From assembly GCF_018603435.1 (NCBI RefSeq), contig NZ_CP075682.1, positions 310,001 to 374,000 on the forward strand: a DNA stretch of 64,000 bases, given 5' to 3'. Position 1 is the stretch's first letter; the number at the start of each line of letters is the position of its first letter. Under the pieces are notes generated by a model. It worked only from the letters and a program-made list of their open reading frames with translations. It was not told the origin of the DNA and ran no database searches. The position numbers and the translations under genes are program-made. Shown in pieces: positions 17,255 through 42,291 of this stretch. Source of the DNA: Chryseobacterium sp. ZHDP1. GTDB lineage: Bacteria; Bacteroidota; Bacteroidia; Flavobacteriales; Weeksellaceae.

Positions 17255-17274
17255 AGCCTTCGTTTTTTAGCAAT

Positions 17275-18486: not shown

Positions 18487-18515
18487 AATTGTTTTATTTT
18501 ATTATGTAATGACCA

Positions 18516-18531
18516 TTAATATTCCAAATGA
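18516..18531 (-). promoter_or_regulatory. Possible sigma-54 promoter, weak
   Basis: On the minus strand TGGAATATTAATGGT shows GG, ten bases, then GT at the -24/-12 positions. GG is correct but the -12 dinucleotide should be GC. It lies 75 bases downstream of the TTCCA-N5-TGGAA palindrome, similar to the spacing in the other two units, which is the main reason for listing it. Confidence 0.3.
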
Positions 18532-18592
18532 TAAAAAATATTTTAATTAGTTGATAATTAGATAGTTAAAATTCAAAGAAAATGTTTTGAAT

Positions 18593-18607
18593 TTCCACAA
18601 TCTGGAA
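18593..18607. promoter_or_regulatory. TTCCA-N5-TGGAA operator, copy 1
   Basis: TTCCACAATCTGGAA followed by AATGGA, 107 bases upstream of the DUF1972 glycosyltransferase start. It shares the palindrome and the AATG extension with copies at 24016 and 31113, each upstream of a transcription unit of the same locus. Likely binding site of a dimeric regulator. Confidence 0.6.
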
Positions 18608-18613
18608 AATGGA

Positions 18614-19690
18614 TTATAAATTGGAAATAATTTCGAGAGATTTTCTCTCGAAATAGGCTTCAGAAAACAAAAGGCTTTTCTCGTAAGATGCTTCACTAAA
18701 AGATTGATAGACAGATGGGTTGTTCAATATGTAGTTTAATTTTTCAGAAAGTTCATTTGTGTTTTTAGAATCAATTAAAAAACCGTTTTTATTATCTTCA
18801 ACCAGTTCTGTAACGCCTCCTATAGGCGCAACGATCGCAGGTAAGCCGTAACGCATTCCTTCCAGAATCGTAAGTCCGAATGTTTCCACCCAAAGATCGG
18901 GATGAGACAGGTTAAGAATTACGCTGGCTTCCTGATAAAAAGGATGCGTATCGGTTTGGGTAGGATAAATAATAAGCTGTTTTGGAATTTCCTTTCCTTT
19001 AAAATATTCCTGAATTTCCTTTTCCGTAGCATTTACCACAAGTTTGAATATGTAAGAAGGATTTTTTCTGGCTAATTCCAGAAATTCATCAACTCCTTTG
19101 TAAATTTTTAAAGAACAGATCATTAAAACTACTGGGATTTCTTTTTCCACATTTCGGAAACGGTCTGCTTTTTCGGCAAAATCACTTTCCAGAACATTGT
19201 ACAGCAATTCCTGATTGTTAATTAAAGATTCCTGTTTCAGAAGATATTCCGAAACAAAAACAATTTTAGCGGCAGTCATTTTTGCCGTTCCGAAAAGAAA
19301 ATTTTTAAATATTTTCGGCTTTACCGAAGTTTCATGGATATGATAAATAATCTTACAGCCTCTCAGCTTTCCTGCAATTGCCGCCCCGAAAGGCAGCACT
19401 GTATTGATGTAAACAACATCACTTTTTTTTAGGAAAAAGAGCAATTTAATCATCAGAAAAAACTGACTGAGAAAGAAATTAACAATTCTTACCAGTGCGT
19501 TGGACGAAAAGCGATACCAGAACAGATGATTTTTAACCTTCGGAATATCAGACAAAAACCCCTTTCTTCCGCCTGAAGTAAAAAGATGCGCATCCATCCC
19601 GTTTTTTATCCAGGATTTCAGAAGCTGCATCAGAACTTTCGGGCTTCCGCTATAATCATTCAGAAGATGAACAGATACAATTCTTTTCAT
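18614..19690 (-). CDS. Glycosyltransferase family 4
   Basis: A 358-residue GT-B enzyme. The N-terminus VHLLNDYSGSPKVLMQLL and the C-terminal donor-site stretch ETFGLTILEGMRYGLPAIVAP near residues 270-290 are typical of family 4; EGMRYGLP carries the acidic catalytic-type motif. A hydrophobic patch near residues 70-90 may attach it to the membrane. It lies 2 bases after the upstream glycosyltransferase gene and closes the transcription unit that begins at 23919. Confidence 0.85.
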   Translation of the reverse strand: MKRIVSVHLLNDYSGSPKVLMQLLKSWIKNGMDAHLFTSGGRKGFLSDIPKVKNHLFWYRFSSNALVRIVNFFLSQFFLMIKLLFFLKKSDVVYINTVLPFGAAIAGKLRGCKIIYHIHETSVKPKIFKNFLFGTAKMTAAKIVFVSEYLLKQESLINNQELLYNVLESDFAEKADRFRNVEKEIPVVLMICSLKIYKGVDEFLELARKNPSYIFKLVVNATEKEIQEYFKGKEIPKQLIIYPTQTDTHPFYQEASVILNLSHPDLWVETFGLTILEGMRYGLPAIVAPIGGVTELVEDNKNGFLIDSKNTNELSEKLNYILNNPSVYQSFSEASYEKSLLFSEAYFERKSLEIISNL

Positions 19691-19692
19691 GG

Positions 19693-20925
19693 CTAGATTT
19701 GGTTATAGATTGTATTGAGATGATCGCCTCTTTTTTCCCAGGAGAATCGGTCAAGATAATGCTTTCTGGCTTCGATGCTCATTTTTTGCTGAAGATCTTT
19801 GTCTGAAAATAATTTCGTTAAAACATTGCTTAATTCCGTTACCGTTTGATCATATTCCTGCTGTGGAACAGTAAAACCGCATTTTTCGGTAATAAATTCT
19901 CCGGGACCTTCATTTTGGAGGCAGACAACCGGAAGTCCGAAAGAAAGAGCTTCCGGAACCACCATTCCTGCTCCTTCATGAGACGGAAAGAGAAAAACCG
20001 AAGCTTTTTCATACATTTTCATCAGTTCTCTGCGGTCGATCCATTCAATGATTTCAATATAATTTTCAGCGTTATTTTGCTGAATTAAATCTTTGTAAAA
20101 CTGCTTTTGTTCGCCGGTTCCCACCAAAATTAACTTGCATTTCGCTTTTTCTTCTTCCGAAAGCCGACTGATAAACTGAATGAATGAACGAATCGTAAGA
20201 TCAAAACCTTTCAACGGAACAAATCTTCCTACACTGATTACGGCAAAATCTGATTTTACCGCTACTTCATCTTTTTGATAAAAATCTTCCGAAGCAACAG
20301 AAGGATAGAGCGAATACTGATTTTCTTTAAGTTTAAGCTTATCCGGAACTCCGCTGTTCATGCACCAGATGTGATTGGAATGCTTCAAGGTTTTTTTCAG
20401 GGAAGGCGAAAGTTTCCAGAAAAAGTTTTTCACCATCCATGTTAAACGGTCTTTAAGGAAGTATTTTTGGGAATAATCGTTCAGATATTGTTTAGGAATG
20501 AGAGGATGGTGTCCTACAGGACCCCAAACCAACGGCTTTTTTAATTTCCATAAAAAACTGGGTGTCCAGTCGTTATGAAAATTCACATTGTGGGCAATGT
20601 CAAAATTCACCTTCTGTTTTTTTATAAACGAAACAATTCCCCGTTGCCATAAATAATAGTACAGAAGCGCACCACGACTTCCTTTTTTCCAGAAACGCAT
20701 CCAGTAAGGAAGATCAAAATAAAGGAAATTCATGTTCTGATATAACGGATCTGGATTTTCCTTCATGTATTTTTCAATATGTGTTTTATTGTTTTCTCTT
20801 GTTACGACAAAAACTTTACGAAATCTGGCGATCTGATACACAAAATTCCATCCCATCGCATCTTCCGATCCTTTATACGGATTGATAGCGTAGCAAGTTG
20901 CGAGTATCGTCTGATTGGTTTTCAT
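19693..20925 (-). CDS. Glycosyltransferase family 4
   Basis: A 410-residue GT-B enzyme. The N-terminal ATCYAINPYKGSEDAMGW and the donor domain (ISVGRFVPLKGFDLTIRSF, then PSHEGAGMVVPEALSFGLPVV near residues 315-340) are clear family-4 features. Its start lies 53 bases inside the upstream acyltransferase gene in a different frame, an unusually long overlap; both readings look genuine because the glycosyltransferase N-terminus is conserved and the acyltransferase tail is needed only beyond its last hexapeptide turn. Confidence 0.87.
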   Translation of the reverse strand: MKTNQTILATCYAINPYKGSEDAMGWNFVYQIARFRKVFVVTRENNKTHIEKYMKENPDPLYQNMNFLYFDLPYWMRFWKKGSRGALLYYYLWQRGIVSFIKKQKVNFDIAHNVNFHNDWTPSFLWKLKKPLVWGPVGHHPLIPKQYLNDYSQKYFLKDRLTWMVKNFFWKLSPSLKKTLKHSNHIWCMNSGVPDKLKLKENQYSLYPSVASEDFYQKDEVAVKSDFAVISVGRFVPLKGFDLTIRSFIQFISRLSEEEKAKCKLILVGTGEQKQFYKDLIQQNNAENYIEIIEWIDRRELMKMYEKASVFLFPSHEGAGMVVPEALSFGLPVVCLQNEGPGEFITEKCGFTVPQQEYDQTVTELSNVLTKLFSDKDLQQKMSIEARKHYLDRFSWEKRGDHLNTIYNQI

Positions 20926-21613
20926 GGGTTCTTGTTTTTAAAAGTTTAGCGGGAACTCCGCCGATAATGCTGTTGTCCGGAAAAGATTTGGTAATTACAC
21001 TTCCTGCAGCCAGAATACATCCGTCTCCGATTTCCACACCATCCAGAATGGTGACTTTACTTCCGATCCAGCAGTTTTTCCCGATCTTTATTCCTTTTCT
21101 GTTGACACCCTGAAGCCGGATTGAAGTTTCGGGATCTTCATAGTTGTGATTTTCGGGGTGACAGCTCAGATATTGTCCTACAATGCATTCATCACCGATT
21201 TCTAGACCTCCGGAACCGCCAAGATAAGCAAATTCCCCGATCCCTACGTTGTTTCCTATTTTAATTTTTTCTCCGATATTGTTAAAAGAGGTGGAAACAA
21301 TTACTCTGCTGAAAGCTCCGATCGATACATTGTCTCCAAATTCAATTCCGTGTTTTGCAAGGGCAGAAACGTAGACATCATTTCCCAGACGCAGAAATTT
21401 TCCCCATTTTATTTTAGAAACATTAAAGAAACTTACTCTTCTGCCTAGAAGCATTCCTTTGGGATTTCTGAAAGAGAGAAGCATCCTGAAACCTCTGATG
21501 ATGCTCCAGAGCTGGATCCAGATAAACTGCAGAACCGCTCCGGAGTTCAAATCATCATCTATAGTAAAGTAGGGACTTCTTAGTTTTATAATTTTTACGA
21601 CAAGCTTTTTCAT
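20873..21613 (-). CDS. Hexapeptide-repeat acyltransferase
   Basis: A 246-residue protein with left-handed beta-helix hexapeptide repeats from about residue 60 to 225 (IGNNVGIGEFAYLGGSG, IGKNCWIGSKVTILDGVEIGDGCILAAGSVI) and the terminal PDNSIIGGVPAKLLK motif of the CatB/WcaF/maltose O-acetyltransferase type. It probably acetylates a sugar of the polymer, using acetyl-CoA. The start overlaps the stop of the upstream fusion kinase gene by four bases (ATGA). The C-terminal 17 residues are encoded in the overlap with the next glycosyltransferase. Confidence 0.85.
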   Translation of the reverse strand: MKKLVVKIIKLRSPYFTIDDDLNSGAVLQFIWIQLWSIIRGFRMLLSFRNPKGMLLGRRVSFFNVSKIKWGKFLRLGNDVYVSALAKHGIEFGDNVSIGAFSRVIVSTSFNNIGEKIKIGNNVGIGEFAYLGGSGGLEIGDECIVGQYLSCHPENHNYEDPETSIRLQGVNRKGIKIGKNCWIGSKVTILDGVEIGDGCILAAGSVITKSFPDNSIIGGVPAKLLKTRTHENQSDDTRNLLRYQSV

Positions 21614-23919
21614 CTCTGTGCAATTATTGTGTTCATGATCGTTCCTAATGTCACATCAAGATCATTGTTTTCGATTGCTAAATACTTCACTCTCTGGTTC
21701 TTTCTTTCCAGTTTAGAGAAAAGGGAACTGTATTCTGAAGTAAGGTCACAAATCGAATGATACGAAAGTTCTTTTTTTCTACTAAGTATTTTTTCAGGCG
21801 CAGCATACAGGAAGAAGTTGAATTCCGGCTTCATCAGGAAATGATATCCTGTCTCCGTTACGGATTTCGGAAGCTGAATGTTGCTTCTTCTTGCATCGGC
21901 AATAAAATCGAAATAATACCTGTCGTATAAAACTATTTTTCCCCGCAAAACATATTTTGTGTATATAACAAATTGTCCTAAAATATAATCTGTATAATAA
22001 TATCCGAATCTTAATAAGGAAGAAAGGGAGTTTTTGTTGTTTCCCTGTCTGGGTAAAGAATTTACCGCGTCCTCATGTGCTTTTTCCTTTCCTTTGGTCC
22101 ATACACTCAGGATGGGAAGCAGGGAAGGTCTGTGTCTCAGTACTTTTACAGGTCTTCTGTAGCGTTTTTCAATCAGTTCAGAAACTTCCGAGATCACTGT
22201 GGATTTTCCTGCTCCGTCCACGCCACTGAATGTGATGATGAAGCCTTTTTCCGCAAAGGAATCTCTTAAATAATGAAATGTATTTTTAAAATAACTGAAT
22301 CCTTTATTATAATTCTTCATTTTCAGCGTTTTAATCGTGAGTTCTCTGTCGGTTATTTTGTTTGATTTTAAATGTTCTGAAACAAATTTAGCGTACGTTT
22401 CAGGAATTTCTGCGCCGTTCAGACTGTAAAAAAGATCAATAAATCGGGCAGTGTCTTTTTCTGAAACTTTATAAACGCCATATCTGTTTTTCCTTCTGTT
22501 TTCCATAATTTTAGAAATATCCATAATCTGCATATGCTTCCATTTTACCTGATGGATAAGATCCAGATTAAGAATCTCGTTTTGAAGAGTAACAATTCTT
22601 ACCGTCTGCATGAAAGATTTCTTTACTGTTGAAACTTTCTTTACAAGGCTGTGTCCGGATAAATAACTGACTAATTTCTGGGCGTTTTCAGAAGAAATAA
22701 TCATATCAATATCAGAATTCAGCTTCAGTTTTTCAGGTTCTTCACTGTGGAATTTCAAAGCCGCATAATCTGTGTGATAAAGCGCATCGAAAGTATCTAA
22801 AATGACCAGTTCTCTTTCGGTAGAATAGTTTTTTAGAATGATATTTAAAGCTTCATTCCATGTTTTTAACAGCCAGTGAATCTGAAGATGCCATTCTTCC
22901 TGTGCAGCATAAATGGTAAGATAAGACAGCGTATTGGTCAGAAGATAGTACTTCAGATAGTTCTGAAGTTCGGCTTCGCTGAACCGGAAGGTTATTTTAT
23001 TTTTTTCTTTAATCTCTGCATAAATTTCTTTCCAGCTTTTTTTCTGGATTAGAATTCCGTTCTGGATAATAAAATGAAAGAAATCAAACGCTTTTGGCTT
23101 TTCTGTAGAAGACAGCTCCCAGTCATAAACAGCAAGTTTTCCATTTTTTATGTAACAGTTCCACGAGGTAAAATCTCCATGAGAAAATGCAACTTTAATG
23201 TTTTCTTCTTCATTGGTATGTCTTAAGATCGCTTTTATCTTTCGGATGATATTTTTCGGAATTCTTTCATCCTCAATTGTTAAAAACTGTTCTTTTACAC
23301 TTTGAAAATACTTCCATTCCGATATTTTTACGCTTCTTTCATGGTGTGCTGCAATCTTTTTTACGGCTTCCGCATGAATTCCGGTAAAAGCGTTTTCACG
23401 AATTCCTTTGTTTGAAACATCCGATAACCGAAGAATATTTTCACTGATCATTGAAGCTTCAGGAACCTGTAATATATTGCCCGAAATAATTTTTCTCACG
23501 TTTTTGTTTTCCGTAGCAATGAGCTTCTTTGCTGTTTCTGTTTCTGCAATTTTATAAAAGTATCCTTCGCTGTACAGAAGCGCTTTGTTATTCGGACCTA
23601 CTGTTCCCGTAAAAATTGCCCAGTCGTTTTCGATATCAAAAACCGGCTGACCATTTTTTACATAATACAGCGTTTCTTTCTTAAAAACAATTCTCTGCAG
23701 ATGTAGTGCAAAAACAGTTTTTACCAACAGTTCAAAAAGTTTTGCCTTCGGAGTAGCCGCATTATAAAATTTTAGAAATAACGGTTTTGCGGAATCTGAG
23801 TTCCAAAACCATCTTACTGTTCCGTCAGGATTTTTTATATAAGAAAAAGAAATCTTTTTACTGTTCTTTTCCTGTTTTGTAAATAGTTTGTACCCTGTAT
23901 TTCTAAATAATGTTTTCAT
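21610..23919 (-). CDS. Three-domain fusion: APH-like, nucleotidyltransferase-like and thymidylate-kinase-like
   Basis: A 769-residue soluble protein. The first part contains the aminoglycoside-phosphotransferase-type catalytic loop SHGDFTSWN at 246-254 and the metal-site YDWE at 265-268 (in place of the usual IDWE/DFG). The middle part has NSDIDMII at 401-408, resembling a nucleotidyltransferase DxD within a DALYHTDYAALKFH context. The last part is a P-loop kinase of the dTMP-kinase type, FSGVDGAGKST at 564-574, with DRYYFDFI at 666-673 as the usual DRY-like motif. It is the first gene of a transcription unit with the acyltransferase and two glycosyltransferases. Substrates are unknown; a role in activating or phosphorylating a polymer component is inferred. 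Confidence 0.75.
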   Translation of the reverse strand: MKTLFRNTGYKLFTKQEKNSKKISFSYIKNPDGTVRWFWNSDSAKPLFLKFYNAATPKAKLFELLVKTVFALHLQRIVFKKETLYYVKNGQPVFDIENDWAIFTGTVGPNNKALLYSEGYFYKIAETETAKKLIATENKNVRKIISGNILQVPEASMISENILRLSDVSNKGIRENAFTGIHAEAVKKIAAHHERSVKISEWKYFQSVKEQFLTIEDERIPKNIIRKIKAILRHTNEEENIKVAFSHGDFTSWNCYIKNGKLAVYDWELSSTEKPKAFDFFHFIIQNGILIQKKSWKEIYAEIKEKNKITFRFSEAELQNYLKYYLLTNTLSYLTIYAAQEEWHLQIHWLLKTWNEALNIILKNYSTERELVILDTFDALYHTDYAALKFHSEEPEKLKLNSDIDMIISSENAQKLVSYLSGHSLVKKVSTVKKSFMQTVRIVTLQNEILNLDLIHQVKWKHMQIMDISKIMENRRKNRYGVYKVSEKDTARFIDLFYSLNGAEIPETYAKFVSEHLKSNKITDRELTIKTLKMKNYNKGFSYFKNTFHYLRDSFAEKGFIITFSGVDGAGKSTVISEVSELIEKRYRRPVKVLRHRPSLLPILSVWTKGKEKAHEDAVNSLPRQGNNKNSLSSLLRFGYYYTDYILGQFVIYTKYVLRGKIVLYDRYYFDFIADARRSNIQLPKSVTETGYHFLMKPEFNFFLYAAPEKILSRKKELSYHSICDLTSEYSSLFSKLERKNQRVKYLAIENNDLDVTLGTIMNTIIAQR

Positions 23920-23945
23920 GATGATTATTTATATACCAAAATAGT

Positions 23946-23961
23946 ATAAAAATATCTGCCA
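23946..23961 (-). promoter_or_regulatory. Possible sigma-54 promoter, partial
   Basis: On the minus strand TGGCAGATATTTTTA has an excellent -24 half (TGGCA) but TTTTA where TTGC is expected at -12. It lies 63 bases downstream of the palindrome at 24016. The match is incomplete and is supported mainly by analogy with the wza unit. Confidence 0.3.
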
Positions 23962-24015
23962 TAAATTCAAATTACTTATAATCAGTTAGTTATATTATTT
24001 TTAATCTGATTTTCA

Positions 24016-24030
24016 TTCCAGAATCTGGAA
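24016..24030. promoter_or_regulatory. TTCCA-N5-TGGAA operator, copy 2
   Basis: TTCCAGAATCTGGAA followed by AATGGA, 97 bases upstream of the start of the three-domain fusion gene. Nearly identical to copy 1 at 18593, including the flanking AATGGA, in the same orientation. Confidence 0.6.
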
Positions 24031-24052
24031 AATGGAACTGTCCTGTGGAATT

Positions 24053-25345
24053 TTAATCAGCAAATAGATCCGGTCTTTTCTTCTTCAGGATAATTTTCTG
24101 CCATCTTGTAAGATGATTATTGTTGCGGAATGCAATAGAAAATATAATGATCTGATAGAACATGATCCCATAATTACTTTCTCCAAAAATCCCGAATTCT
24201 GTAAAGGAATTAATAACGATAGGAATAAGAATCCCGATGAGCATCAGTTTCTGTTCTTTCTGTTCAGACAAGATCGATTTTACAGTAAAAAATACCTGAA
24301 AAAGTACAATGGTAAACCCGATAAATCCAAGATTCATCAGAACCTGCATAAAAGTGTTGTGCGTCATTTTTCCCGGATAGGTATGTGCGCTCTGGAAAAA
24401 CTCTTTGTAATCGATCCTCATAAAGCCAAAGCCCAAAAGCGGTTCTCTTGGTAAACCTTCTGTAATTAAAGCCTGCCAGAAAGGAAGCCTTCCGGTAAGA
24501 CTCATGATTTCTTCCAGCCTTTCCTGATCTCCGCCTTTCAGAATAACGGTGTATACCGCAAAAGGTGCAACCATCGCAACAAGCGCAATAATGGCAAACT
24601 TCAGGGTTTTCTGTTTGGTCTGGTTGATGTGGAAAAATACGATCAGCAAAACGCCGATCAGGGAAGATCGCGATCCGGTCATAAATAAGGCATACAGAAT
24701 CACCATAATTTTTATAATGGTCCAGACTTTCTTTTTAAAACGGTAAAGATCAAAAATAAGACATGCAGAACCTACTCCTGCAAGCATTCCAAGCTCATTG
24801 GGATTCATCATTGTTCCTCCAAGCCTTGCTTCTTCGCCACCGTCGGTTAACCGGAAAAATATATCCGGAGCAACCCACATTCCGATCACGAAAATAAGCT
24901 GAAGAACGAAAACGGTGTTTCCCAGAAGATGATATAATCTGATGTTGTGTCCTTCAAAATAAACGTCTAAAACCTTCAGACTTTTTACGAAAAAATAAGC
25001 AAAAACAAAGCTCTGAAAGGTCATAAACCATTGTAACGCACTGAATCCCGGATTGGTACTCCACGAAAATGAAATGAATCCCAAGATTAAATAGCAGATG
25101 TATAAAATCGGCGAAAATATGTTTTTGTATTCCAGAGAATTGATGCTTCCGTATCGGATGATTTTAAAGTAAATGAGAATAGAAGAAATCATAACGCCCA
25201 TTCTTCCGACTACTTTGATGGCTCGTGTAATGTTTACATTTTCGCTCCATGTAAAAAAACATCCCACCATAAGCAGAAGAATGATGAAGAGCTGGTTGTT
25301 CAGCTTTTTAAGAAATTGCTGATGATGAAGAGGTAGCGTTTCCAT
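24053..25345 (-). CDS. O-antigen ligase/polymerase-like protein (Wzy type)
   Basis: A 430-residue protein with about eleven membrane segments and the large periplasmic loop of the Wzy_C/O-antigen ligase family. The loop contains SLTGRLPFWQALI, GFGFMRIDYKEFF and SAHTYPGKMTHNTFMQVLMNLG near residues 280-345; the conserved histidine in THNTF is the expected catalytic position. Given the Wzx and co-polymerase genes directly upstream it is most likely the polymerase of this locus. It is the last gene of the unit beginning at 31013. Confidence 0.85.
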   Translation of the reverse strand: METLPLHHQQFLKKLNNQLFIILLLMVGCFFTWSENVNITRAIKVVGRMGVMISSILIYFKIIRYGSINSLEYKNIFSPILYICYLILGFISFSWSTNPGFSALQWFMTFQSFVFAYFFVKSLKVLDVYFEGHNIRLYHLLGNTVFVLQLIFVIGMWVAPDIFFRLTDGGEEARLGGTMMNPNELGMLAGVGSACLIFDLYRFKKKVWTIIKIMVILYALFMTGSRSSLIGVLLIVFFHINQTKQKTLKFAIIALVAMVAPFAVYTVILKGGDQERLEEIMSLTGRLPFWQALITEGLPREPLLGFGFMRIDYKEFFQSAHTYPGKMTHNTFMQVLMNLGFIGFTIVLFQVFFTVKSILSEQKEQKLMLIGILIPIVINSFTEFGIFGESNYGIMFYQIIIFSIAFRNNNHLTRWQKIILKKKRPDLFAD

Positions 25346-25347
25346 TT

Positions 25348-26463
25348 TCAGCAGTTGTAGAGTTTGGTATTCATTTCATGAAGAATTCTATTCCAGTCGA
25401 AAGCTTCTTCTACCATTTGTATTGCATTTGCGCAAATCTTTTCATAGTTCTGCTGGTCTTTCCAAATTTTGGAAATATCGAAAAATGCTTTGGTAAGGAG
25501 TGTTGTCTTAGGTGAAGGGATATTGATTCCCGCATTGTATTGTTCAACAAGATAGCCGATATTGGTGTTTTTTGTTACAATACAGGGTTTGCCGAAATTT
25601 GCAGCTTCGATTACGGAAACCGGCAATCCTTCGTTTCTGGAAGGATGCACAAAAATGTCCATCTTTTTCAAGAGATCATTTTTTTCTTCTCCAAATTTAC
25701 TTCCGAAAAGAATTGTTTTATCTTCAATTCCCAGTGCTTTTATTTTTTGATGAAGTTCATCTTTTTCATCGCTGTCGCCCACAATCCACAATTCAGAAAA
25801 GGGATCCGCTTTAGAAAATTCAGCAAAACTCTCCACAAGCAGATCCAGACCTTTTGTGTAAATATCCAGCCTTCCGATAAAACCGAAAATTAAAGTTTCT
25901 TTGTACGGATTAGAACAGACTTCATCCTTTATCCTTTCAAATCCATAGGGAATCAAAGTACCTTTTCGGGTTGTATAAATCGACTGTAAACCCTCCATCT
26001 CGCTTTCGCCAATGCAGTGAATTTTTGAAGCATTTTTGATGACGCTTTTTTCAAAAAACTCGAAGTAAAGCTTTTTGGTAATCATACTTTTCTGCATTGC
26101 GACAGCATTGTACGCTCCGTGGGGCGTAATAATATAATTGAATTTGTGTTTCCGCAAAAATCTGCTTAAGGACGAAAATACAGGAATCCATCCGCCATGA
26201 AGGTGAAAGACTGTAGATTCGCTGCTGTTAATTATTTCTTTCTGAAGATCTTCCGGAATGGAAAAAGGATTTTTTTTCCGTTTAAAAATCTTCGTTTTAA
26301 AGTTTCTTTCGGGGTAATTAACCTCTGTATTTTCGGAGATTCCCCAAACTTCTACATCCTGTTTATTTTCAGCCTGTTTTGTCGCGATATTATAAACGAC
26401 TTTATTTACGCCGTTCACCTTTTCAGGATTTGCTTTTCCTAATATCAAATGTACTATGCCCAT
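25348..26463 (-). CDS. Glycosyltransferase family 4
   Basis: A 371-residue GT-B enzyme. The N-terminus contains NGVNKVVYNIATKQ (glycine-rich acceptor loop), and the donor domain has IFGFIGRLDIYTKGLDLLV near residue 195 and HPSRNEGLPVSVIEAANFGKP near 285-305, with the E-x7-E type motif. The start overlaps the flippase gene by ten bases, so translation is coupled. Donor and acceptor are not assignable. Confidence 0.87.
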   Translation of the reverse strand: MGIVHLILGKANPEKVNGVNKVVYNIATKQAENKQDVEVWGISENTEVNYPERNFKTKIFKRKKNPFSIPEDLQKEIINSSESTVFHLHGGWIPVFSSLSRFLRKHKFNYIITPHGAYNAVAMQKSMITKKLYFEFFEKSVIKNASKIHCIGESEMEGLQSIYTTRKGTLIPYGFERIKDEVCSNPYKETLIFGFIGRLDIYTKGLDLLVESFAEFSKADPFSELWIVGDSDEKDELHQKIKALGIEDKTILFGSKFGEEKNDLLKKMDIFVHPSRNEGLPVSVIEAANFGKPCIVTKNTNIGYLVEQYNAGINIPSPKTTLLTKAFFDISKIWKDQQNYEKICANAIQMVEEAFDWNRILHEMNTKLYNC

Positions 26464-27680
26464 ACTGAAATCTGTTTTCTGCTAAGTAAAATTTTCCAGT
26501 ACACGATCATTAAAATCTGGTTAATCACAAGTCCCGCAACTGCGCCGTAAAGTGCTCCGTATTTCAGTAAAAAATGAAAACTGAGTAATGAAAACACAAA
26601 CGAAATGCAGTATCCTGTAAAAAAAGCTTTATTCTGCTCCAGAACTCTTATGGAAAGCCGGGTAGGGTAGCTGTACAAAATCACGACATATAGTACCGAA
26701 ACCAGTTTAATTACAAAACCATACTGTTTGTATTGTTCTCCGCCCAATAGCGTAATGAGAGGTTCTGAAAAGATGAAGAAACTGATGATTAAAATTCCTA
26801 AAGCCAGCATTCCTTTCGACATACTGAAAAGCAGGGATTTTTTTTCTTCTTTTTTGTCCTGATAATGAAGCTTCGCAGTTTTCGGGAGGTAATAATTTTC
26901 AACAGTCTGAAGAATAACATTAATAACCCCGAAAAACGACTGAACCAGCCTCAAAGCTCCCAAAGCATTAACTCCTAAATAGATTCCCGCAGCCAGAGTG
27001 AAGAAATTACCCGAAAACCACTGAACTATAGAAGCGCTTAAAAGCCATTTTCCTTCTGTAAAATGATAATGAAACAGGGAAGCGTTACTGAAGCTGAAGT
27101 CTGCATTTTTCAGACCATACCAAACTCCGGGAATGGAAGCAATGACATTAACAATTCCTATAATCAGAAGGCTTTTTCCTAAATCGAGACTGTTTTCAAA
27201 CCATATTAAAGGAAAAACAAGGAGAAAAATACTGTCGATAAAAAGTACAAGTTGTATGCGGTCTATCGTAAGTAAAACTTTTCTCATAAAGTCCTGAAAA
27301 ACATACGCTGCTGCAAAAACAATGATTGCCACTGTATTCTCTTTAATAAATGACAGTGCCGAAACCGGTATAAATTTAACAGCAGAAATAAGAGCAGCAA
27401 AAATAAGAATTAAAGGTACTGCTGCCTGAAAAACGAAGCCCAGAGACTTTTTACTGTATTCTTTTGCTGCCAGAATCTGGAAAGGCTGTACCACAATGGC
27501 GTTGCAGATGCCTACCAAAAGATACGTAACCAAAAGCACAGACGAAAACAGACCAAAATCTGAAATATTCAGTTTTCGGGCAAGTAAAAACGTCAGAAGA
27601 AAATTGCTTCCGCTGAAAATCAGCTGGTCTGCGAAAACCAGAGATGTGGGTCTGCGAAATATTTCTGTAAGCTTTTTCAC
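26454..27680 (-). CDS. Wzx-like polysaccharide flippase
   Basis: A 408-residue protein with about twelve membrane segments and the MOP-superfamily N-terminus (VFADQLIFSGSNFLLTFLLARKLNISDFGLFS). It should move the lipid-linked repeat unit across the inner membrane. Length is normal. It overlaps the co-polymerase gene by four bases and the downstream glycosyltransferase by ten, placing it firmly in the wza unit. Confidence 0.87.
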   Translation of the reverse strand: MKKLTEIFRRPTSLVFADQLIFSGSNFLLTFLLARKLNISDFGLFSSVLLVTYLLVGICNAIVVQPFQILAAKEYSKKSLGFVFQAAVPLILIFAALISAVKFIPVSALSFIKENTVAIIVFAAAYVFQDFMRKVLLTIDRIQLVLFIDSIFLLVFPLIWFENSLDLGKSLLIIGIVNVIASIPGVWYGLKNADFSFSNASLFHYHFTEGKWLLSASIVQWFSGNFFTLAAGIYLGVNALGALRLVQSFFGVINVILQTVENYYLPKTAKLHYQDKKEEKKSLLFSMSKGMLALGILIISFFIFSEPLITLLGGEQYKQYGFVIKLVSVLYVVILYSYPTRLSIRVLEQNKAFFTGYCISFVFSLLSFHFLLKYGALYGAVAGLVINQILMIVYWKILLSRKQISVWA

Positions 27681-29824
27681 GATCTTTTTCTGTTTATAAA
27701 ACGTTTAATAGAGGTCATTAAACTCGGGTTATAGCCTTCTTTATTCAGAACAAACCAAAGATTCGTCAGTTTGTATTCATCCTTCAGAAGTTCTACGTTC
27801 ATAATTGTTTTTTCGGCTGTTCTTCGGCTGTCTAAAACAAAAAGATTCTGATCTGCCATTTTCAGGAATAATAAAGGAAGTTTTCCTTGTTTTATTGACT
27901 GGTTATTGATGATGCAGATTTCGTTTCCTGTCATTCTTTCACGGATCAGATTCTCAATATCCGTGGAAGTTAATCTTAAATTTTTTTCTTCTGAAAAGTC
28001 GATATAATCGATATTTTCAATATTTTCTAAATTTCCCGCTACATCAATTACCAATACTTTTCTGGATTGCGCCTGCAAAGCTTTTATGATATTTTTTGAA
28101 TGAAACAAATGCTGTTTCGATTTATCATATGAAGTGATGCAGATGAGATTTTTATCTTTAATAATTTCTTTCAGTTCCATTTCCAATACGTTCTCGAGAA
28201 AGTGATGCATTATGTTTTCCCTGTTTTTAATAAAAGGGGTTGTAAATGCAACAGGAATGGTGCTGTTTTTTTCGATGGTATACACATCATTTACTTTGGC
28301 TTTTGCAAAATGTACAGCGTAGATCAGCGCAATAGACCCGATCATACTCATAATGGCTGCAACAATGATGATGATGGAGCGCATCGGTGAAACCGGCTGT
28401 TTAGGAAGTTCCCCTTTTGTAATAATTTTATGAAAAGAAATTTTTGCCGCTTTTGCAATTTCTGCATCTATTCTTTTTTCGTTCAGGAAATTATAATTCT
28501 TTTCGTAAAGATTAAACTCACGGTTCATGATGTTCAGCAGTTTTTCCTTTTCAGGCAGACCTATAAAAGCCTGTTCTGCAATCTGGATATCGCGGTCGAT
28601 ATCGTTATACTTAATCTGTAAGTTTCTCTGTGTGTTTCTTATGCTTTCTGTTTGATAATCAGTAAGATCTTTAATTTTAGCATCAATTACTTTTACCTTT
28701 TCATGTTCGGGCGTATAAGTAAGCAGGAGTTCTTTTTTTTCAGCCTGAAGCAGCTTCATATTTTTAATCATTTCCGTAGAAAGAAGGTCGTTGAATGCTT
28801 CAAAATTTGGGGCAAGTTCAAGATAATTGTCTTTTCCTTCAGAAATATAGCTGTTGAGATTTTTAATCGCATCCAGATTCATTTTCAGGTTGCTCTTCTG
28901 GATTTTAAGCTGAGAGATCTTTCTGAGATCGGTTTCTGTTTCCTGCGGTATATTAATGATATTTTTTCTGTCTCTGTAGTTTTCGATGCGGTTTTCTGCA
29001 TCGCTAAGTTTGTTGTTTGCCTGCCCGATTTCTCCTTTGAGAAAGTCTACGGTTGTATTGGCAGCGCGGTATTTATTTTCAATATAATCTTCAATATATG
29101 TTTCTGCAAGTGTATTCACGAGAAGACTTGCTTTTTCCGGAACGTTGCTTTTATAATTGATTCTGATAACGGGAACGTCTTTATCTACCGAAACAATATC
29201 AAGATTCTTATTTATCTTGTCCAAAAGTTTTTCTCTGCTCAGGAATTCAACTTCATAATGATCGATGATTTTAGCAGCAGGTTTAAACTTAAGTAAGCTG
29301 TCGTTTTTAGTGACGAGAATTTTCCCTCCTTTAATATCTGTGGGCGTTCCGAAAGTTCCCTTTATTTCTTTTGTGGAGTCTGAAGCAGCTATCGTAAAAT
29401 TCTGGGTTGATGTTACGTGGATGCTGAATTTTTTATCGTAATTTTTTTCATCTGTTAAAAAGCCCTCAACTTTTATCGGAGAATCGTTAAAAAGTTCTAC
29501 GGAGCGCACTTTTCCTTTTCTGTAAATTTCGGTGGAAAAGGGTAGTTTTTCAAGTGTTTTTTCAATTAAAGATGTAGATTTAAGAACTTCAATTTCTGTG
29601 CTTATCTTATTTGGGGTAGCAAAAACGTCGAAATCTTTGAATAGATTTGCACTTGGTACACCTTCCTGTGTATCTGCAAGTTTCAGTTTTGCAGTACTTT
29701 CGTACATAGGTGTTACGTAGTTAAGGTACTTTTTTGCTGCCAAAACCGCAATAATCATTGCGAGAACCACGATAGGAAATCCTCGTAACAGCGGTTTCAG
29801 AAATCTTACATTCTCGTTGTTCAT
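27677..29824 (-). CDS. Wzc/GumC-like polysaccharide co-polymerase with degenerate kinase domain
   Basis: A 715-residue inner-membrane protein. TM1 is at about residues 12-30, followed by the Wzz domain, a long coiled-coil periplasmic part (about 260-440) and TM2 near 485-505 after the P-rich KQPVSPMR motif. The cytoplasmic tail is shaped like a BY-kinase (ICITSYDKSK near 555, then KVLVIDVAG near 590), but the Walker A consensus GEGKS is absent and there is no C-terminal tyrosine cluster. It should therefore control chain length without autophosphorylation. It lies between wza-like and wzx-like genes. Confidence 0.85.
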   Translation of the reverse strand: MNNENVRFLKPLLRGFPIVVLAMIIAVLAAKKYLNYVTPMYESTAKLKLADTQEGVPSANLFKDFDVFATPNKISTEIEVLKSTSLIEKTLEKLPFSTEIYRKGKVRSVELFNDSPIKVEGFLTDEKNYDKKFSIHVTSTQNFTIAASDSTKEIKGTFGTPTDIKGGKILVTKNDSLLKFKPAAKIIDHYEVEFLSREKLLDKINKNLDIVSVDKDVPVIRINYKSNVPEKASLLVNTLAETYIEDYIENKYRAANTTVDFLKGEIGQANNKLSDAENRIENYRDRKNIINIPQETETDLRKISQLKIQKSNLKMNLDAIKNLNSYISEGKDNYLELAPNFEAFNDLLSTEMIKNMKLLQAEKKELLLTYTPEHEKVKVIDAKIKDLTDYQTESIRNTQRNLQIKYNDIDRDIQIAEQAFIGLPEKEKLLNIMNREFNLYEKNYNFLNEKRIDAEIAKAAKISFHKIITKGELPKQPVSPMRSIIIIVAAIMSMIGSIALIYAVHFAKAKVNDVYTIEKNSTIPVAFTTPFIKNRENIMHHFLENVLEMELKEIIKDKNLICITSYDKSKQHLFHSKNIIKALQAQSRKVLVIDVAGNLENIENIDYIDFSEEKNLRLTSTDIENLIRERMTGNEICIINNQSIKQGKLPLLFLKMADQNLFVLDSRRTAEKTIMNVELLKDEYKLTNLWFVLNKEGYNPSLMTSIKRFINRKRS

Positions 29825-29835
29825 GGTAATAAGTT

Positions 29836-30567
29836 TTATAATAATCCTATGAGGATGGCTGCTGCGGAAGTAACGGTTGCGAAAGGAATAATGGTTGAAA
29901 TTCTTTTATCGAAATCTTTACTTTTCTTGGAAGGAACAATGATGTAATCTCCCGGATGAAGAAGGATATTCTGGTTGGGAACATCTTTCATTTTGGTAAG
30001 ATCAATATTGGTTACGCGAACGTTTTCCCCTTCCTGCCGCAGAATTTTAATTGATTTTAAATTGGCGTACATTTCAAATCCTCCCGCTTTGGAAACCAGC
30101 TCCAGTAAAGTATTCTGGTCTTTATCTACCTGAATTACAGCCGGGTTTCTCACTTCACCCATCACTGCAATTTCTTTATTCAGAACTTTTACATCCACGA
30201 TAGGATTTACCAGCCATTTTTTAAGCTTTGTTTTTATTTCTTCCTTCAGCTCCGGAACCGATTTTCCTACAACTGGAGTTGTTCCCAATTTTGGAATTTC
30301 TATATTTCCGTTGATGTCTACCAGAAGCCATTTTCCGTATACTTCATTAGAATTGTAAATTCCGTACACGGAGCCCACACTTAAATCATCTTCACCCCAA
30401 ACGGAAAGCGTAATTTTATCGTCCTTACGGATTCTGTATTCGTAATTCGGATCATAGCTGAAATCCTGCATATTTCGGGTAGCCTGCTCTTCTTCAAGTA
30501 CATTGTACGTTTTACAGGATACCAGAAGCATCAGGAAAAAGAATGATAGTGTGAGTTTTTTTAACAT
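29836..30567 (-). CDS. Wza-like polysaccharide export lipoprotein
   Basis: A 243-residue lipoprotein: signal peptide with lipobox LLVSC (Cys18), the Poly_export domain (YRIRKDDKITLSVWGEDDLS, DINGNIEIPKLG), a SLBB-type domain (EVRNPAVIQVDKDQNTLLELVSKAGGF region) and a C-terminal hydrophobic segment. It should form the outer-membrane or periplasmic export channel with the co-polymerase. It lies five bases after the receiver gene, so a response regulator and the exporter share one transcript. Confidence 0.88.
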   Translation of the reverse strand: MLKKLTLSFFFLMLLVSCKTYNVLEEEQATRNMQDFSYDPNYEYRIRKDDKITLSVWGEDDLSVGSVYGIYNSNEVYGKWLLVDINGNIEIPKLGTTPVVGKSVPELKEEIKTKLKKWLVNPIVDVKVLNKEIAVMGEVRNPAVIQVDKDQNTLLELVSKAGGFEMYANLKSIKILRQEGENVRVTNIDLTKMKDVPNQNILLHPGDYIIVPSKKSKDFDKRISTIIPFATVTSAAAILIGLL

Positions 30568-30572
30568 AAGAT

Positions 30573-31013
30573 TTAAAATAAAACTGTAAAGAATTTTCTA
30601 AAACCTTTCCGTTGGTTCTGAGACATTTCTTCTTTAATTTTTAATATTTTCTCTATTGTATCCGTCATTTTATCGCATACATCCGCATCTTTTACGATGT
30701 AATCGAATGCTCCGTACTTCAGGGCGTTTACTGCGGTGTCTATATTTTCCTGCGCAGAGACCATGATCACGTAAATGTTCGGATCATATCTTTTTATCTT
30801 TTTTAAAACCTCAAAACCGTTAAGATCTTCCATGTTGTGATCCAGAAAAATAATATCGGGTTTCTGGTAAAGCTCGTCCAGACATTCTTCTCCGCTGCTG
30901 AATGAGGTAATATCTTCGTAATGGTTATTCTTTAAATACTGCTCATAAACTGTAGCACAAAATCTGTCATCATCTACAATAAAAAATTTCAATTTTTTGT
31001 TATTTGTTTCCAT
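30573..31013 (-). CDS. Single-domain response regulator
   Basis: A 146-residue receiver: acidic pocket DDD near residues 15-17, phospho-acceptor aspartate in IIFLDHNMEDLNG near 57, and the conserved lysine in DYIVKD near 109. About 35 residues follow without a DNA-binding domain. It is very similar to the receiver of the sigma-54 activator at 34534-35889 (both have DDPFF, SSG.ECL.ELY..PDII and YIVK), so they are paralogues. It is the first gene of the polysaccharide export unit, directly behind the palindrome and the best sigma-54-like promoter. Confidence 0.88.
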   Translation of the reverse strand: METNNKKLKFFIVDDDRFCATVYEQYLKNNHYEDITSFSSGEECLDELYQKPDIIFLDHNMEDLNGFEVLKKIKRYDPNIYVIMVSAQENIDTAVNALKYGAFDYIVKDADVCDKMTDTIEKILKIKEEMSQNQRKGFRKFFTVLF

Positions 31014-31035
31014 CTCTTTTATTTGATAATGATAA

Positions 31036-31051
31036 CGCGATTACCATGCCT
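31036..31051 (-). promoter_or_regulatory. Sigma-54-like promoter of the wza unit
   Basis: On the minus strand AGGCATGGTAATCGCG carries GG at -24 and GC at -12 with exactly ten bases between, and agrees with TGGCACG-N4-TTGC at ten of the twelve defined positions listed (GGCA, G, T, GC and spacing). Transcription would start about 12 bases before the ATG at 31013. The centre of the palindrome at 31113 is 70 bases upstream, a normal distance for an enhancer-binding protein. Confidence 0.55.
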
Positions 31052-31112
31052 TTATTTAAGTTGTTGATAATCAGTGCTTGTTTGATTGTTTAAATTCCAA
31101 AATAAAGACATT

Positions 31113-31127
31113 TTCCATATTTTGGAA
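31113..31127. promoter_or_regulatory. TTCCA-N5-TGGAA operator, copy 3
   Basis: TTCCATATTTTGGAA, 100 bases upstream of the receiver gene. Read on the minus strand it is TTCCAAAATATGGAA followed by AATG, sharing palindrome and extension with copies 1 and 2 but in opposite orientation. An extra half site TTCCAAAAT lies at 31095. Confidence 0.6.
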
Positions 31128-31132
31128 TAAAA

Positions 31133-33391
31133 CTATGTTATTTCCTTTTCCAGTTGTTCTATAGCGGTGGAAAGTGTGTTTTTCACTTCTAAGAACATGG
31201 TGTAAAGCTCTGTAAAATCTGTCTGTTGGTCTTTAGATTTTACCTCAAGTTCTTTTACGGTTTCTTTGATGGAGTAGATGCCGACTCCTTCAATACTTGG
31301 TTTTATTCTGTGAATAAGACGTGATATTTCTGCATAATTTTTTTCTTCGAATGCCTGTTCTACCAAAGGAATCGTCTGCTGCGTCTGAGTAATGAATATG
31401 GAAAGCATTTTTTGAATGAAATCTTCATTTCCCCGGCTTAAAGCCTGAATATTTTTAAGGTCATAAAGTGCTTTTTCTGCTCCTGAATCATTGGTTTCCG
31501 GGGCATTTTGCATTTTAATATTTTTATAAATTACTTTCAGAAGCTCATCCTCATCAAAGGGTTTGGTGATGTAGCTGTTCATTCCGGCAGCAATACAATT
31601 GTCTATTTCTGTTTTAAAGGCATTTGCTGTAAGGGCAATAATGGGTGTGGTAAGCCTGAAATCTTTACGGATGATTTTTGTGGCTTCAATACCATCGAGC
31701 TCAGGCATCTGAATGTCCATTAAAATAATATCAAACTGTTTTTTCGAAAGAATATCTATGGCTCTTCTGCCATTATCTGCTTTTGTAACTTCACATCCGA
31801 AGTGCGTAAGAGAATTTTCGGCAACAAGCTGATTAAGTTCGTTGTCTTCCACCAGCAAAACACGGGTTCCTTCGATGGAAACATGTTCTTTTACTTCAAT
31901 GTTTTTCAATGTTGTTTTTTCTTTACTTTTATCCATATCCAGAAAAATACTGATCTCAGTTCCTACATTTTTTTTACTTTTAATTTTAATTTCTCCTTTC
32001 ATCAGGTAGATAAGTTCCCGGGTAATTGCCATTCCGAGACCGGTTCCTCCGTATTTTCTGGAAATGGAGCTGTCTTCCTGATTAAATTTCTTAAAGATCT
32101 GCTTTACATATTCTTCGCTCATTCCTATTCCGGTATCAATAATACAGATCTGAAGAGATTGATGGTTGGGGAAATCTTTTATGACATTGCATTCTACCCG
32201 TATTTCTCCTACGTTTGTAAATTTTAGGGAATTTCCGATAATATTGTACAAAATCTGTTTTATTTTCAGGGCATCGGCTTTGAATTCTGAAAAAAGATCA
32301 TCAGAAAATTTAGCTTTAAGCATTATTTTTTTCTGTCTTGCTTTGGGCTGAAGAATACTGATGATATTACTAATGCATTCTTTCAGCGAAAAAACAGTAT
32401 TATCCAGAGACATTTCGCCGGATTCTATTTTGGAGATATCCAGAATGTTGTTAATGATGGATAAAAGATGCTGCGCGGCGTTGAAGCTGTTTTCTACAAA
32501 CTGATTCTGGGTTGTTGTAAGATCAAGCCTTTTAAGTTCCCGGAGAAAACCGATGATGGCATTAAGCGGAGTTCTGATTTCATGGCTCATGTTGCCTAAA
32601 AATACCTCTTTCGCCTTGGAAGCTTCAATTGCTTTAGATTTTTCCTGCTTTAGATCTTCTTCCAGCTTTTTCTGGTCTGTAATATCAAGGTGGATACCTA
32701 TGGAGCCTAACAGATTTCCGTGATCGTCATAATTGGGAGCACCGCTGATTGCCCACCATCTCAGTTCGCCTCTTTTATTTTTTATAGGAAGCTGATAAAC
32801 GCTGGAAATTCCTTTCTCTCTAAGGTCAATCTGTTCCTGTATAAATTCCAGATTGGCTTCCCCCTGTACAAAAAGCTGCGAAGGATTTTTACCGATAATT
32901 TCGTCCAGCTCAAAACCTGAAACGTTGCAGAAACTCTGGTTCGCATAGCGTACAATCTCATCATTATCCACTTCAATAAGTCCGAGATTCATATTCGCAA
33001 TAATGTTGCGGTATTTTTCTTCCTGACGTTTGATGTTATCCTGCGCTCTTTTTCGCTCTTTAAGCTGTTCTGCCAGATATAAGGAAAGTTCTTTAAGGTC
33101 TTTATTTTTTTTCGTATCAAAAGAATAATCCAGTAAGCTTAATGATTCATAAAGGCTCGAAATGGATTCCTGCTTGAGTTCATTTTCTTTCTTCAGATCA
33201 TTAAACAATTCTTTATATTCTTTTTCGCTTTGCCTGAATGCATGATCGGTAAGTTCTTTATCGCGCTCAAAAGATTTATAAGAATCGTTGATTGCATTAA
33301 TAAAGTTCTTAAATTTCGGGTCGCTGTGGCAATCTTCGGGCAGATGTCTTTTAATCTGTCTTCTGAGTAAATTGTGCAAATCGATTTCCAT
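31133..33391 (-). CDS. Hybrid sensor histidine kinase (PAS-HisKA-HATPase-REC-HPt)
   Basis: A 752-residue cytoplasmic kinase without membrane segments. Order: helical N-terminus with coiled coil (40-130), PAS/PAC (126-243), HisKA with phospho-acceptor His270 in NMSHEIRTPLN, HATPase with DTGIG (419-423) and GGTGLGMAI (448-456), receiver with Asp559 in LMDIQMPELDG, and an HPt domain with His694 in LIHRIKP. It can therefore run a complete phosphorelay internally and pass phosphate to the neighbouring receiver and activator. The FIST gene ends two bases before its start, making FIST the likely input partner. Confidence 0.92.
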   Translation of the reverse strand: MEIDLHNLLRRQIKRHLPEDCHSDPKFKNFINAINDSYKSFERDKELTDHAFRQSEKEYKELFNDLKKENELKQESISSLYESLSLLDYSFDTKKNKDLKELSLYLAEQLKERKRAQDNIKRQEEKYRNIIANMNLGLIEVDNDEIVRYANQSFCNVSGFELDEIIGKNPSQLFVQGEANLEFIQEQIDLREKGISSVYQLPIKNKRGELRWWAISGAPNYDDHGNLLGSIGIHLDITDQKKLEEDLKQEKSKAIEASKAKEVFLGNMSHEIRTPLNAIIGFLRELKRLDLTTTQNQFVENSFNAAQHLLSIINNILDISKIESGEMSLDNTVFSLKECISNIISILQPKARQKKIMLKAKFSDDLFSEFKADALKIKQILYNIIGNSLKFTNVGEIRVECNVIKDFPNHQSLQICIIDTGIGMSEEYVKQIFKKFNQEDSSISRKYGGTGLGMAITRELIYLMKGEIKIKSKKNVGTEISIFLDMDKSKEKTTLKNIEVKEHVSIEGTRVLLVEDNELNQLVAENSLTHFGCEVTKADNGRRAIDILSKKQFDIILMDIQMPELDGIEATKIIRKDFRLTTPIIALTANAFKTEIDNCIAAGMNSYITKPFDEDELLKVIYKNIKMQNAPETNDSGAEKALYDLKNIQALSRGNEDFIQKMLSIFITQTQQTIPLVEQAFEEKNYAEISRLIHRIKPSIEGVGIYSIKETVKELEVKSKDQQTDFTELYTMFLEVKNTLSTAIEQLEKEIT

Positions 33392-42206: not shown

Positions 42207-42291
42207 CGGAGAGTGAGGGATTCGAACCCCCGGACCTGTTACAGTCAACAGTTTTCAAGACTGCCGCAATCGACCACTCTGCCAACTCTCC
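42207..42291 (-). tRNA. tRNA-Ser (anticodon UGA)
   Basis: The minus strand folds as a class II tRNA: acceptor GGAGAGT with ACTCTCC, discriminator G, D arm GCAGAGTGGTCGATTGC, anticodon stem GCAGT/ACTGT with loop CTTGAAA (anticodon TGA), a long variable arm and the T arm GGGGGTTCGAATCCC. The long variable arm and anticodon identify serine. CCA is not encoded. Confidence 0.95.

Follow-up and report, generated by a model that had tools for sequence, protein, structure and literature searches.

A Conserved Palindrome Predicted to Serve as a Sigma-54 Enhancer before Three Exopolysaccharide Operons of Chryseobacterium

We analyzed a 64-kilobase (kb) stretch of Chryseobacterium sp. ZHDP1 DNA (bases 310001–374000 of a single-contig genome of 4.92 megabases; the whole stretch is called the window below) that carries an exopolysaccharide locus and, before each of three transcription units within it, the intergenic palindrome TTCCA-N5-TGGAA. 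The locus reads along the minus strand. Genes for an NtrC-type activator, a FIST protein, and a hybrid kinase precede the palindrome at 31113 (site 0), which is followed by receiver, Wza, Wzc-like, Wzx-like, glycosyltransferase, and Wzy-like genes. The palindrome at 24016 (site 1) comes next, with genes for a 769-residue P-loop protein, an acyltransferase, and two glycosyltransferases behind it, and then the palindrome at 18593 (site 2), followed by two further sugar transferase genes. The Wzc-like protein is 93–94% identical to its counterparts in Chryseobacterium gambrini, C. mucoviscidosis, and C. binzhouense. The sites, the units that they precede, and the signaling genes are located as follows.

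31113–31127, minus strand: site 0, exact TTCCA-N5-TGGAA, predicted activator site before the receiver–Wza–Wzc operon
24016–24030, minus strand: site 1, exact TTCCA-N5-TGGAA
18593–18607, minus strand: site 2, exact TTCCA-N5-TGGAA
24053–31013, minus strand: first target unit, receiver, Wza, Wzc-like, Wzx-like, glycosyltransferase, and Wzy-like genes
18614–23919, minus strand: second target unit, 769-residue P-loop protein, acyltransferase, and two glycosyltransferases
16187–18486, minus strand: third target unit, DUF1972 glycosyltransferase and Glycos_transf_4 gene
34534–35889, minus strand: NtrC-type activator with receiver, sigma-54 AAA+ domain with GAFTGA, and C-terminal helix-turn-helix; predicted binder
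33394–34533, minus strand: FIST protein, predicted sensor
31133–33391, minus strand: hybrid histidine kinase, PAS-HisKA-HATPase-REC-Hpt
30573–31013, minus strand: stand-alone receiver, first gene of the first target unit

The initial annotation of this DNA had placed exact palindromes at 18593, 24016, and 31113, lying 107, 97, and 100 bases before the start codons at 18486, 23919, and 31013, respectively, and both the coordinates and the distances hold. Its count of three applies to intergenic copies; the window contains four exact copies against 0.16 expected from dinucleotide-preserving shuffles (at least four occurred in 0 of 100 shuffles), the fourth lying at 25460–25474 inside the glycosyltransferase gene 25348–26463. 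This in-gene copy, kept at its position in only L016–L018 of 12 named relatives, was taken as chance. Genome-wide, there are 16 exact copies, compared to 4 for the reversed control pattern. Stop-to-stop frames of 456–2955 nucleotides contain 11 of the 12 copies beyond the window, and the remaining one is in a frame of 1233 nucleotides, a long frame being taken as a sign of coding independently of gene annotation. The three intergenic sites are thus the only exact copies outside long frames, which agrees with the earlier statement that no other intergenic copy was seen and answers the concern about random copies across the genome. The AATG extension that had been included in the motif follows the palindrome directly on the plus strand at 18593 and 24016 and on the minus strand at 31113; as it is not kept in relatives, we rejected it as a motif part.

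Conservation upstream of orthologous operons, which had been proposed as a check, was found in the 12 named relatives: all have the palindrome at all three positions, exact in 33 of 36 cases and with one mismatch in the other 3. We extended this comparison to a near set of 22 Chryseobacteriaceae loci, including the window, one locus of the same species, and one of another genus. Within one mismatch, site 0 is present in 22/22 loci, site 1 in 18/22, and site 2 in 17/22. Site 1 is missing in L034, L041, L046, and L047, and site 2 in those four and L045. The loci that lack these sites differ in how the genes behind the receiver are arranged, a comparison made at the level of individual proteins for L041, L045, and L046. 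In all five, the palindrome before the receiver gene is kept where the gene content behind the receiver has changed, and L045 has an additional one-mismatch copy assigned to no site.

The activator itself is patchily distributed. Among 296 family genomes, 18 (counting that of the window) encode an orthologue of at least 73% identity, and 22 of the 173 genus genomes searched give a match at E ≤1e-110, one of these matches being truncated. In a comparison of 149 same-genus genomes, with 147 of other genera left out, the mean number of TTCCANWWWNTGGAA copies was 6.35 in genomes with the activator (n = 17) vs 4.01 in those without it (n = 132; p = 2.6e-4); such per-genome counts are noisy, with the reversed control ranging from 0 to 19. 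The locus by itself accounts for roughly this excess of two to three copies, so the counts give no hint of a regulon extending beyond it in the genus.

At the level of the class, an activator match at E ≤1e-105 was found in 129 of 395 genomes. We assembled a distant set of 39 loci with activators 53–70% identical, taken mostly from the top of this match list with some entries skipped. In 14 of the 39, a palindrome within one mismatch lies no more than 200 base pairs (bp) upstream of the activator's own gene; the same test with 29 other orderings of the half-site letters gave 0 or 1 of 39 each. By association, this result favors the initial annotation's proposal that the adjacent activator is the likely binder. 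No other 4+4 palindrome is as frequent as TTCC-N7-GGAA in the 260 bp before the activator gene (13/39, compared to 0–2 for other spacers). An intergenic scan of all 5+5 palindromes with spacers of 0–12 recovered exact TTCCA-N5 in 22/22 near loci; for the distant loci it gave 8 exact and 21 within one mismatch, with other TTCCA spacers at 0–6.

Counterparts of the individual sites are also seen in other families. Site 0 has counterparts before the receiver–Wza operon in L060 and L069, site 1 after a Wzy-like gene in L058 (the next gene lies beyond the fetched stretch), and site 2 before a DUF1972-type glycosyltransferase in L060 and L061, where the L061 site fits TTCC-N7-GGAA yet is two letters off TTCCA-N5-TGGAA. 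Seven of the 14 distant groups (L048, L057, L060, L069, L065, L067, and L071) have a receiver-type gene as their first target. It is divergent from the activator in L065, L067, and L071, and the best match of the L071 receiver is the activator itself (35%). In L049, L050, L055, L056, L057, and L060, palindromes stand ~10–65 bp before the activator gene, single or in tandem and some with two mismatches; they come without a strong sigma-54 box and possibly serve autorepression.

The DNA between each palindrome and its start codon contains further elements, listed here with the partners of the palindromes. Boxes were scored over 11 positions against the sigma-54 −24/−12 consensus, TGGCAC-N5-TTGCW.

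31095–31109, minus strand: degenerate second palindrome copy (three mismatches), 18 bp downstream of site 0
24046–24050, minus strand: TTCCA half-site 20 bp upstream of site 1
18622–18626, minus strand: TTCCA half-site 19 bp upstream of site 2
31036–31051, minus strand: predicted sigma-54 box AGGCATGGTAATCGCG, 61 bp after site 0
23946–23961, minus strand: predicted sigma-54 box TGGCAGATATTTTTAT, 54 bp after site 1
18511–18526, minus strand: predicted sigma-54 box TGGAATATTAATGGTC, 66 bp after site 2
31057–31069, minus strand: tentative IHF-like element
23968–23980, minus strand: tentative IHF-like element, one mismatch
18544–18556, minus strand: tentative IHF-like element

Beyond what the initial annotation had described, two of the sites are accompanied in almost every relative by a second half-site at a distance of 18–20 bp: TTCCA occurs this far upstream of the palindrome in 14/16 loci for site 1 and 15/15 for site 2. 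Exact half-site partners accompany site 0 in only a few of 21 loci. Alignment of site 0 places a full palindrome at either of two positions 18 bp apart; the window uses the upstream one, and most relatives have a full palindrome at the position of the window's degenerate copy. Second copies likewise cluster at 18–20 bp, on either side, among 48 distant copies (e.g., L049, L050, L057, and L072).

A GG-centered box resembling the sigma-54 consensus follows the palindrome in 21/21, 17/17, and 15/15 loci at sites 0, 1, and 2, respectively, in a count that left out L028 (same species) and allowed a wide range at site 0, and in which the boxes of L043–L045 differ between scans. Mean best box scores exceed those of shuffles in both sets (near, 6.98 vs 4.52; distant, 6.64 vs 4.75), and strong boxes are found among the distant loci, matching 10/11 positions in L049 and L050 (TGGCACACATTATGCA) and 9/11 in L057, L058, and L060. 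Because a −24/−12-like box follows each site, the palindrome looks like an enhancer, not a simple operator. The earlier designation as a dedicated operator is therefore retained as a shared, conserved site and revised to an enhancer-like one.

For the near set, the palindrome–box gap is ~43 bp at site 0 (~61 bp where the upstream palindrome is present, as in the window), 53–56 bp at site 1, and 64–67 bp at site 2. Half of the 14 distant groups have gaps of 52–55 bp, and the others have gaps of 64, 65, 76, 82, 84, 85, and 95 bp. These groups derive from 25 rows after removal of duplicates (L050, one L071, and five L072) and of L055 and two rows of L058 (no gene close behind) and L064 (gene end undefined). 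Monte Carlo tests for a helical repeat with the period scanned gave 0.00035 for 10 groups, 0.0012 for 15 groups, and 0.0001–0.00025 for the 14 distant groups. An IHF-like element, identified by its consensus, lies 18–19 or 29–30 bp before many boxes, and the genome has two HU/IHF-family genes.

The activator has an N-terminal receiver (PF00072, 72.9 bits; cut-off 30.2) and an AAA+ domain (PF00158, 238.4 bits) with FGHEKGAFTGATDK in its translation. The Fis-type label given to its C-terminal helix-turn-helix fits by position and alignment, with weak backing from Pfam (HTH_8, 12.4 bits against a cut-off of 22; HTH_17, 18.3 against 27). Its best NCBIfam match is TIGR02915 (PrsR) at 391.9 bits, below the cut-off of 502.6. 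A single PF04552 match in the genome (178.5 bits, in a 487-residue reading frame) identifies rpoN. The stand-alone receiver with which the first target unit begins shares 38% identity with the receiver domain of the activator.

A further group of palindromes was found in L072 (genome G394), on the strand opposite the activator gene. Here, five units each comprise a tandem site, a gap of 53–54 bp, a sigma-54 box of 9–10/11, and a stretch of 178–195 nucleotides after the box that ends in a terminator-like hairpin. Across these units, 4 base pairs are changed on both sides yet kept, all within that hairpin. We built a covariance model of the transcript part and searched 147 genomes of that family with stricter filters. 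Strong copies (at least 134 bits) occur only in two genomes of one genus, 7 in G394 and 6 in G830, and weak matches (at most 41 bits) in G394, G830, and two other genomes. Copies outside the cluster (L108, L113, and L114), which were found without use of the promoter, have the same site, a 10/11 box, and a gap of 54 bp. Predicted copies are located as follows.

L072:3686–5809, minus strand: five predicted RNA copies beside the activator gene
L108:1501–1689: predicted RNA copy
L114:1501–1697: predicted RNA copy
L113:1501–1691, minus strand: predicted RNA copy

No Rfam family match overlaps these copies, and a search of 42 sequence sources found no L072-like RNA in the window at E 1 or better. 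We predict from these data a new, multicopy RNA family behind sigma-54 boxes with the same enhancer as the Chryseobacterium locus. Near one of the copies, a TPP riboswitch match just below the gathering score lies at L108:602–695 (minus strand).

Taken together, the sequence comparisons lead us to assign the palindrome, at a probability of roughly 85%, as the tandem upstream activating sequence of three sigma-54 promoters, with the neighboring NtrC-type activator as the predicted binder. Two activator dimers would bind side by side at the palindrome and the half-site. The Hpt-containing hybrid kinase would relay phosphate to the activator, possibly with the FIST protein as the sensor, and the activator would then form a hexamer and contact the polymerase by DNA looping on a preferred helix face, perhaps helped by an IHF/HU-type bend. 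The stand-alone receiver, encoded by the first gene of the first target operon, could act as a phosphate sink or in feedback. Such an arrangement suggests how the bacterium coordinates three operons of one polymer pathway.

Several observations weigh against this assignment. The boxes in the window score only 7, 8, and 6 of 11 at sites 0, 1, and 2, values equaled by about 23–32%, 4%, and 40–53% of shuffles, respectively, and the site 1 box is without the −12 GC; since shuffles reach these scores, the boxes alone are not convincing. The IHF-like element is not significant, with shuffles matching in 17–25% on average. In the near set, 0 of 22 loci have a palindrome in the 200 bp that precede the gene of the activator itself, and among the 39 distant loci, 16 are without any intergenic copy at up to one mismatch. 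Palindromes composed of A and T only equal or exceed TTCCA-N5 in the distant loci, with up to 10 exact and 29 one-mismatch occurrences, and none of the 23 distant loci with R after the recognition-helix motif GKST[IVL]Y has an exact palindrome. All of these loci share ancestry, so the counts are not independent. Phasing becomes weaker with the omitted groups (0.003 with L064; 0.0012 with all 18), and the seven gaps outside 52–55 bp alone give 0.02 with the period fixed at 10.5 bp and 0.06 with it scanned. We regard the preferred palindrome–box distance as firm and the helical stepping of the gap as suggestive.

Other readings of the palindrome were weighed against the same data. A different regulator, either another sigma-54 activator or an unrelated protein, might bind the site and leave the neighboring activator a bystander, and the genome does encode three other strong sigma-54 activator AAA+ domains. 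Their C-termini, however, are unlike that of the activator at the locus: the listed frame of one (L091) ends without a helix-turn-helix, and the other two carry recognition helices of different sequence (IGIATLYRKL and ISQRTLYRKI vs IGKSTVYNLI). The palindrome also tracks the activator gene into other families, where it stands before that gene and its receiver partner. Its exact form occurs in 9/16 distant loci with N, K, or Q after GKST[IVL]Y compared to 0/23 with R (13/16 vs 10/23 within one mismatch), an association confounded by relatedness. These data make a bystander role for the neighboring activator improbable.

It is more improbable still that the palindrome is a repressor operator, or the activator site of an ordinary promoter, with sigma-54 boxes arising by chance in AT-rich DNA. 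The shuffle-like scores of the window boxes at sites 0 and 2 would fit this explanation, as would the distant copies ~24–157 bp before the activator gene, which often have no strong same-strand box and may act in autorepression. Chance boxes are difficult to reconcile with the presence of a GG box at each of the three sites in all loci aligned, with near-consensus boxes in distant loci and 53–54 bp after the site before the RNA family, and with a neighboring sigma-54 activator that contains GAFTGA. Even less weight falls on an RNA element, namely a weak terminator or the 3′-end hairpin of the preceding gene, which we consider extremely unlikely. Each palindrome begins within 25 bases of the preceding stop codon and could form a short hairpin as RNA, but the terminator-like sites include none of them, and folding at two of the three resembles that of shuffles (z = −0.5 and −0.2). 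The third, at 31113, has z = −3.0, but its fold pairs the palindrome with the second half-site, and in distant loci the palindrome precedes the activator gene as well as divergent genes. A terminator was rejected on the absence of the sites from the terminator-like set and their mostly shuffle-like folding.

The sigma-54 enhancer assignment at this locus may extend to a larger system. In our estimation, it is somewhat better than an even proposition that an undescribed phosphorelay regulon, with a hybrid kinase, an NtrC-type activator, and a receiver paralogue as the first target, spans the Bacteroidia and has as its ancestral enhancer TTCC-N7-GGAA, often in tandem 18–20 bp apart and placed on one helix face with respect to a sigma-54 promoter. 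The outputs of this regulon would vary by lineage, with an exopolysaccharide locus under its control in Chryseobacterium and in other families. In one genus, it would drive a new family of ~7 sigma-54-dependent RNAs of ~190 nucleotides, five of them clustered beside the activator gene, in a Qrr-like circuit outside Proteobacteria. The RNA family points to such a circuit in a second phylum. A single locus yielded the site together with its promoter geometry and a likely activator, and all of these recur across families, so a regulon can be predicted from sequence and tested in a culturable Chryseobacterium.

Sigma-54 control is well mapped in Proteobacteria, and to our knowledge few sigma-54 activators of Bacteroidota have a known DNA site. 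The kind of system proposed here is known from SypG–syp, LuxO–Qrr, and PrsR, all with sigma-54 activators whose upstream sites are known or predicted, and this operator was not found in print; no description of it or of the regulon appeared in the literature searched, where coverage of subscription journals is thin. According to excerpts of PMC10162802, SypG of Vibrio fischeri is a sigma-54 activator under sensor-kinase control that switches on the syp polysaccharide locus, and SypG and LuxO can both drive one regulatory RNA via overlapping upstream activating sequences. SypG–syp resembles the locus described here in combining a sigma-54 activator, kinase control, and a polysaccharide locus. 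It differs in phylum and in its site, given in those excerpts as TTCTCANNNTGMDWN compared to TTCCA-N5-TGGAA, and the Chryseobacterium module adds a FIST gene and a stand-alone receiver. LuxO–Qrr shares a sigma-54 activator and paired upstream sites with the present system, in which predicted multicopy RNA genes beside the activator gene are found in one other genus only. The LuxO site, TTGCAWWWTGCAA in the same excerpts, is one half-site letter and two spacer bases from the palindrome, and a comparison by eye fits the window sites to neither TTCTCANNNTGMDWN nor TTGCAWWWTGCAA as excerpted.

For PrsK–PrsR and PEP-CTERM proteins, excerpts of PMC9850573 describe an RpoN-dependent promoter with a predicted enhancer and exopolysaccharide genes needed for floc formation. 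PrsR is the TIGR02915 equivalog, below whose family cut-off the activator here scores, and no search for an exosortase system was made. Sigma-54 and its activators are linked generally with exopolysaccharide genes in a survey whose main text contains none of Bacteroid-, Flavobacter-, TTCC, or TGGAA (PMC3162934). Sigma-54 promoters have been predicted in Flavobacteriia in a second survey, the main text of which does not contain the term exopolysaccharide (PMC12316311). In PMC4482717, TGGAA is found in primers only. Excerpts of a review place sigma-54 activator sites ~100–150 bp upstream, with looping often aided by IHF (PMC7057263).

Some minor features of the locus and its surroundings were also recorded. 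The 769-residue protein encoded at 21610–23919, the first gene of the second target unit, has a P-loop region, and Pfam profiles gave no match to it above the cut-off. Adjoining the locus, positions 38238–39298 show IS110-family transposase matches across two overlapping frames, perhaps a broken insertion sequence. An Rfam match places a tRNA gene at 42207–42291 on the minus strand.

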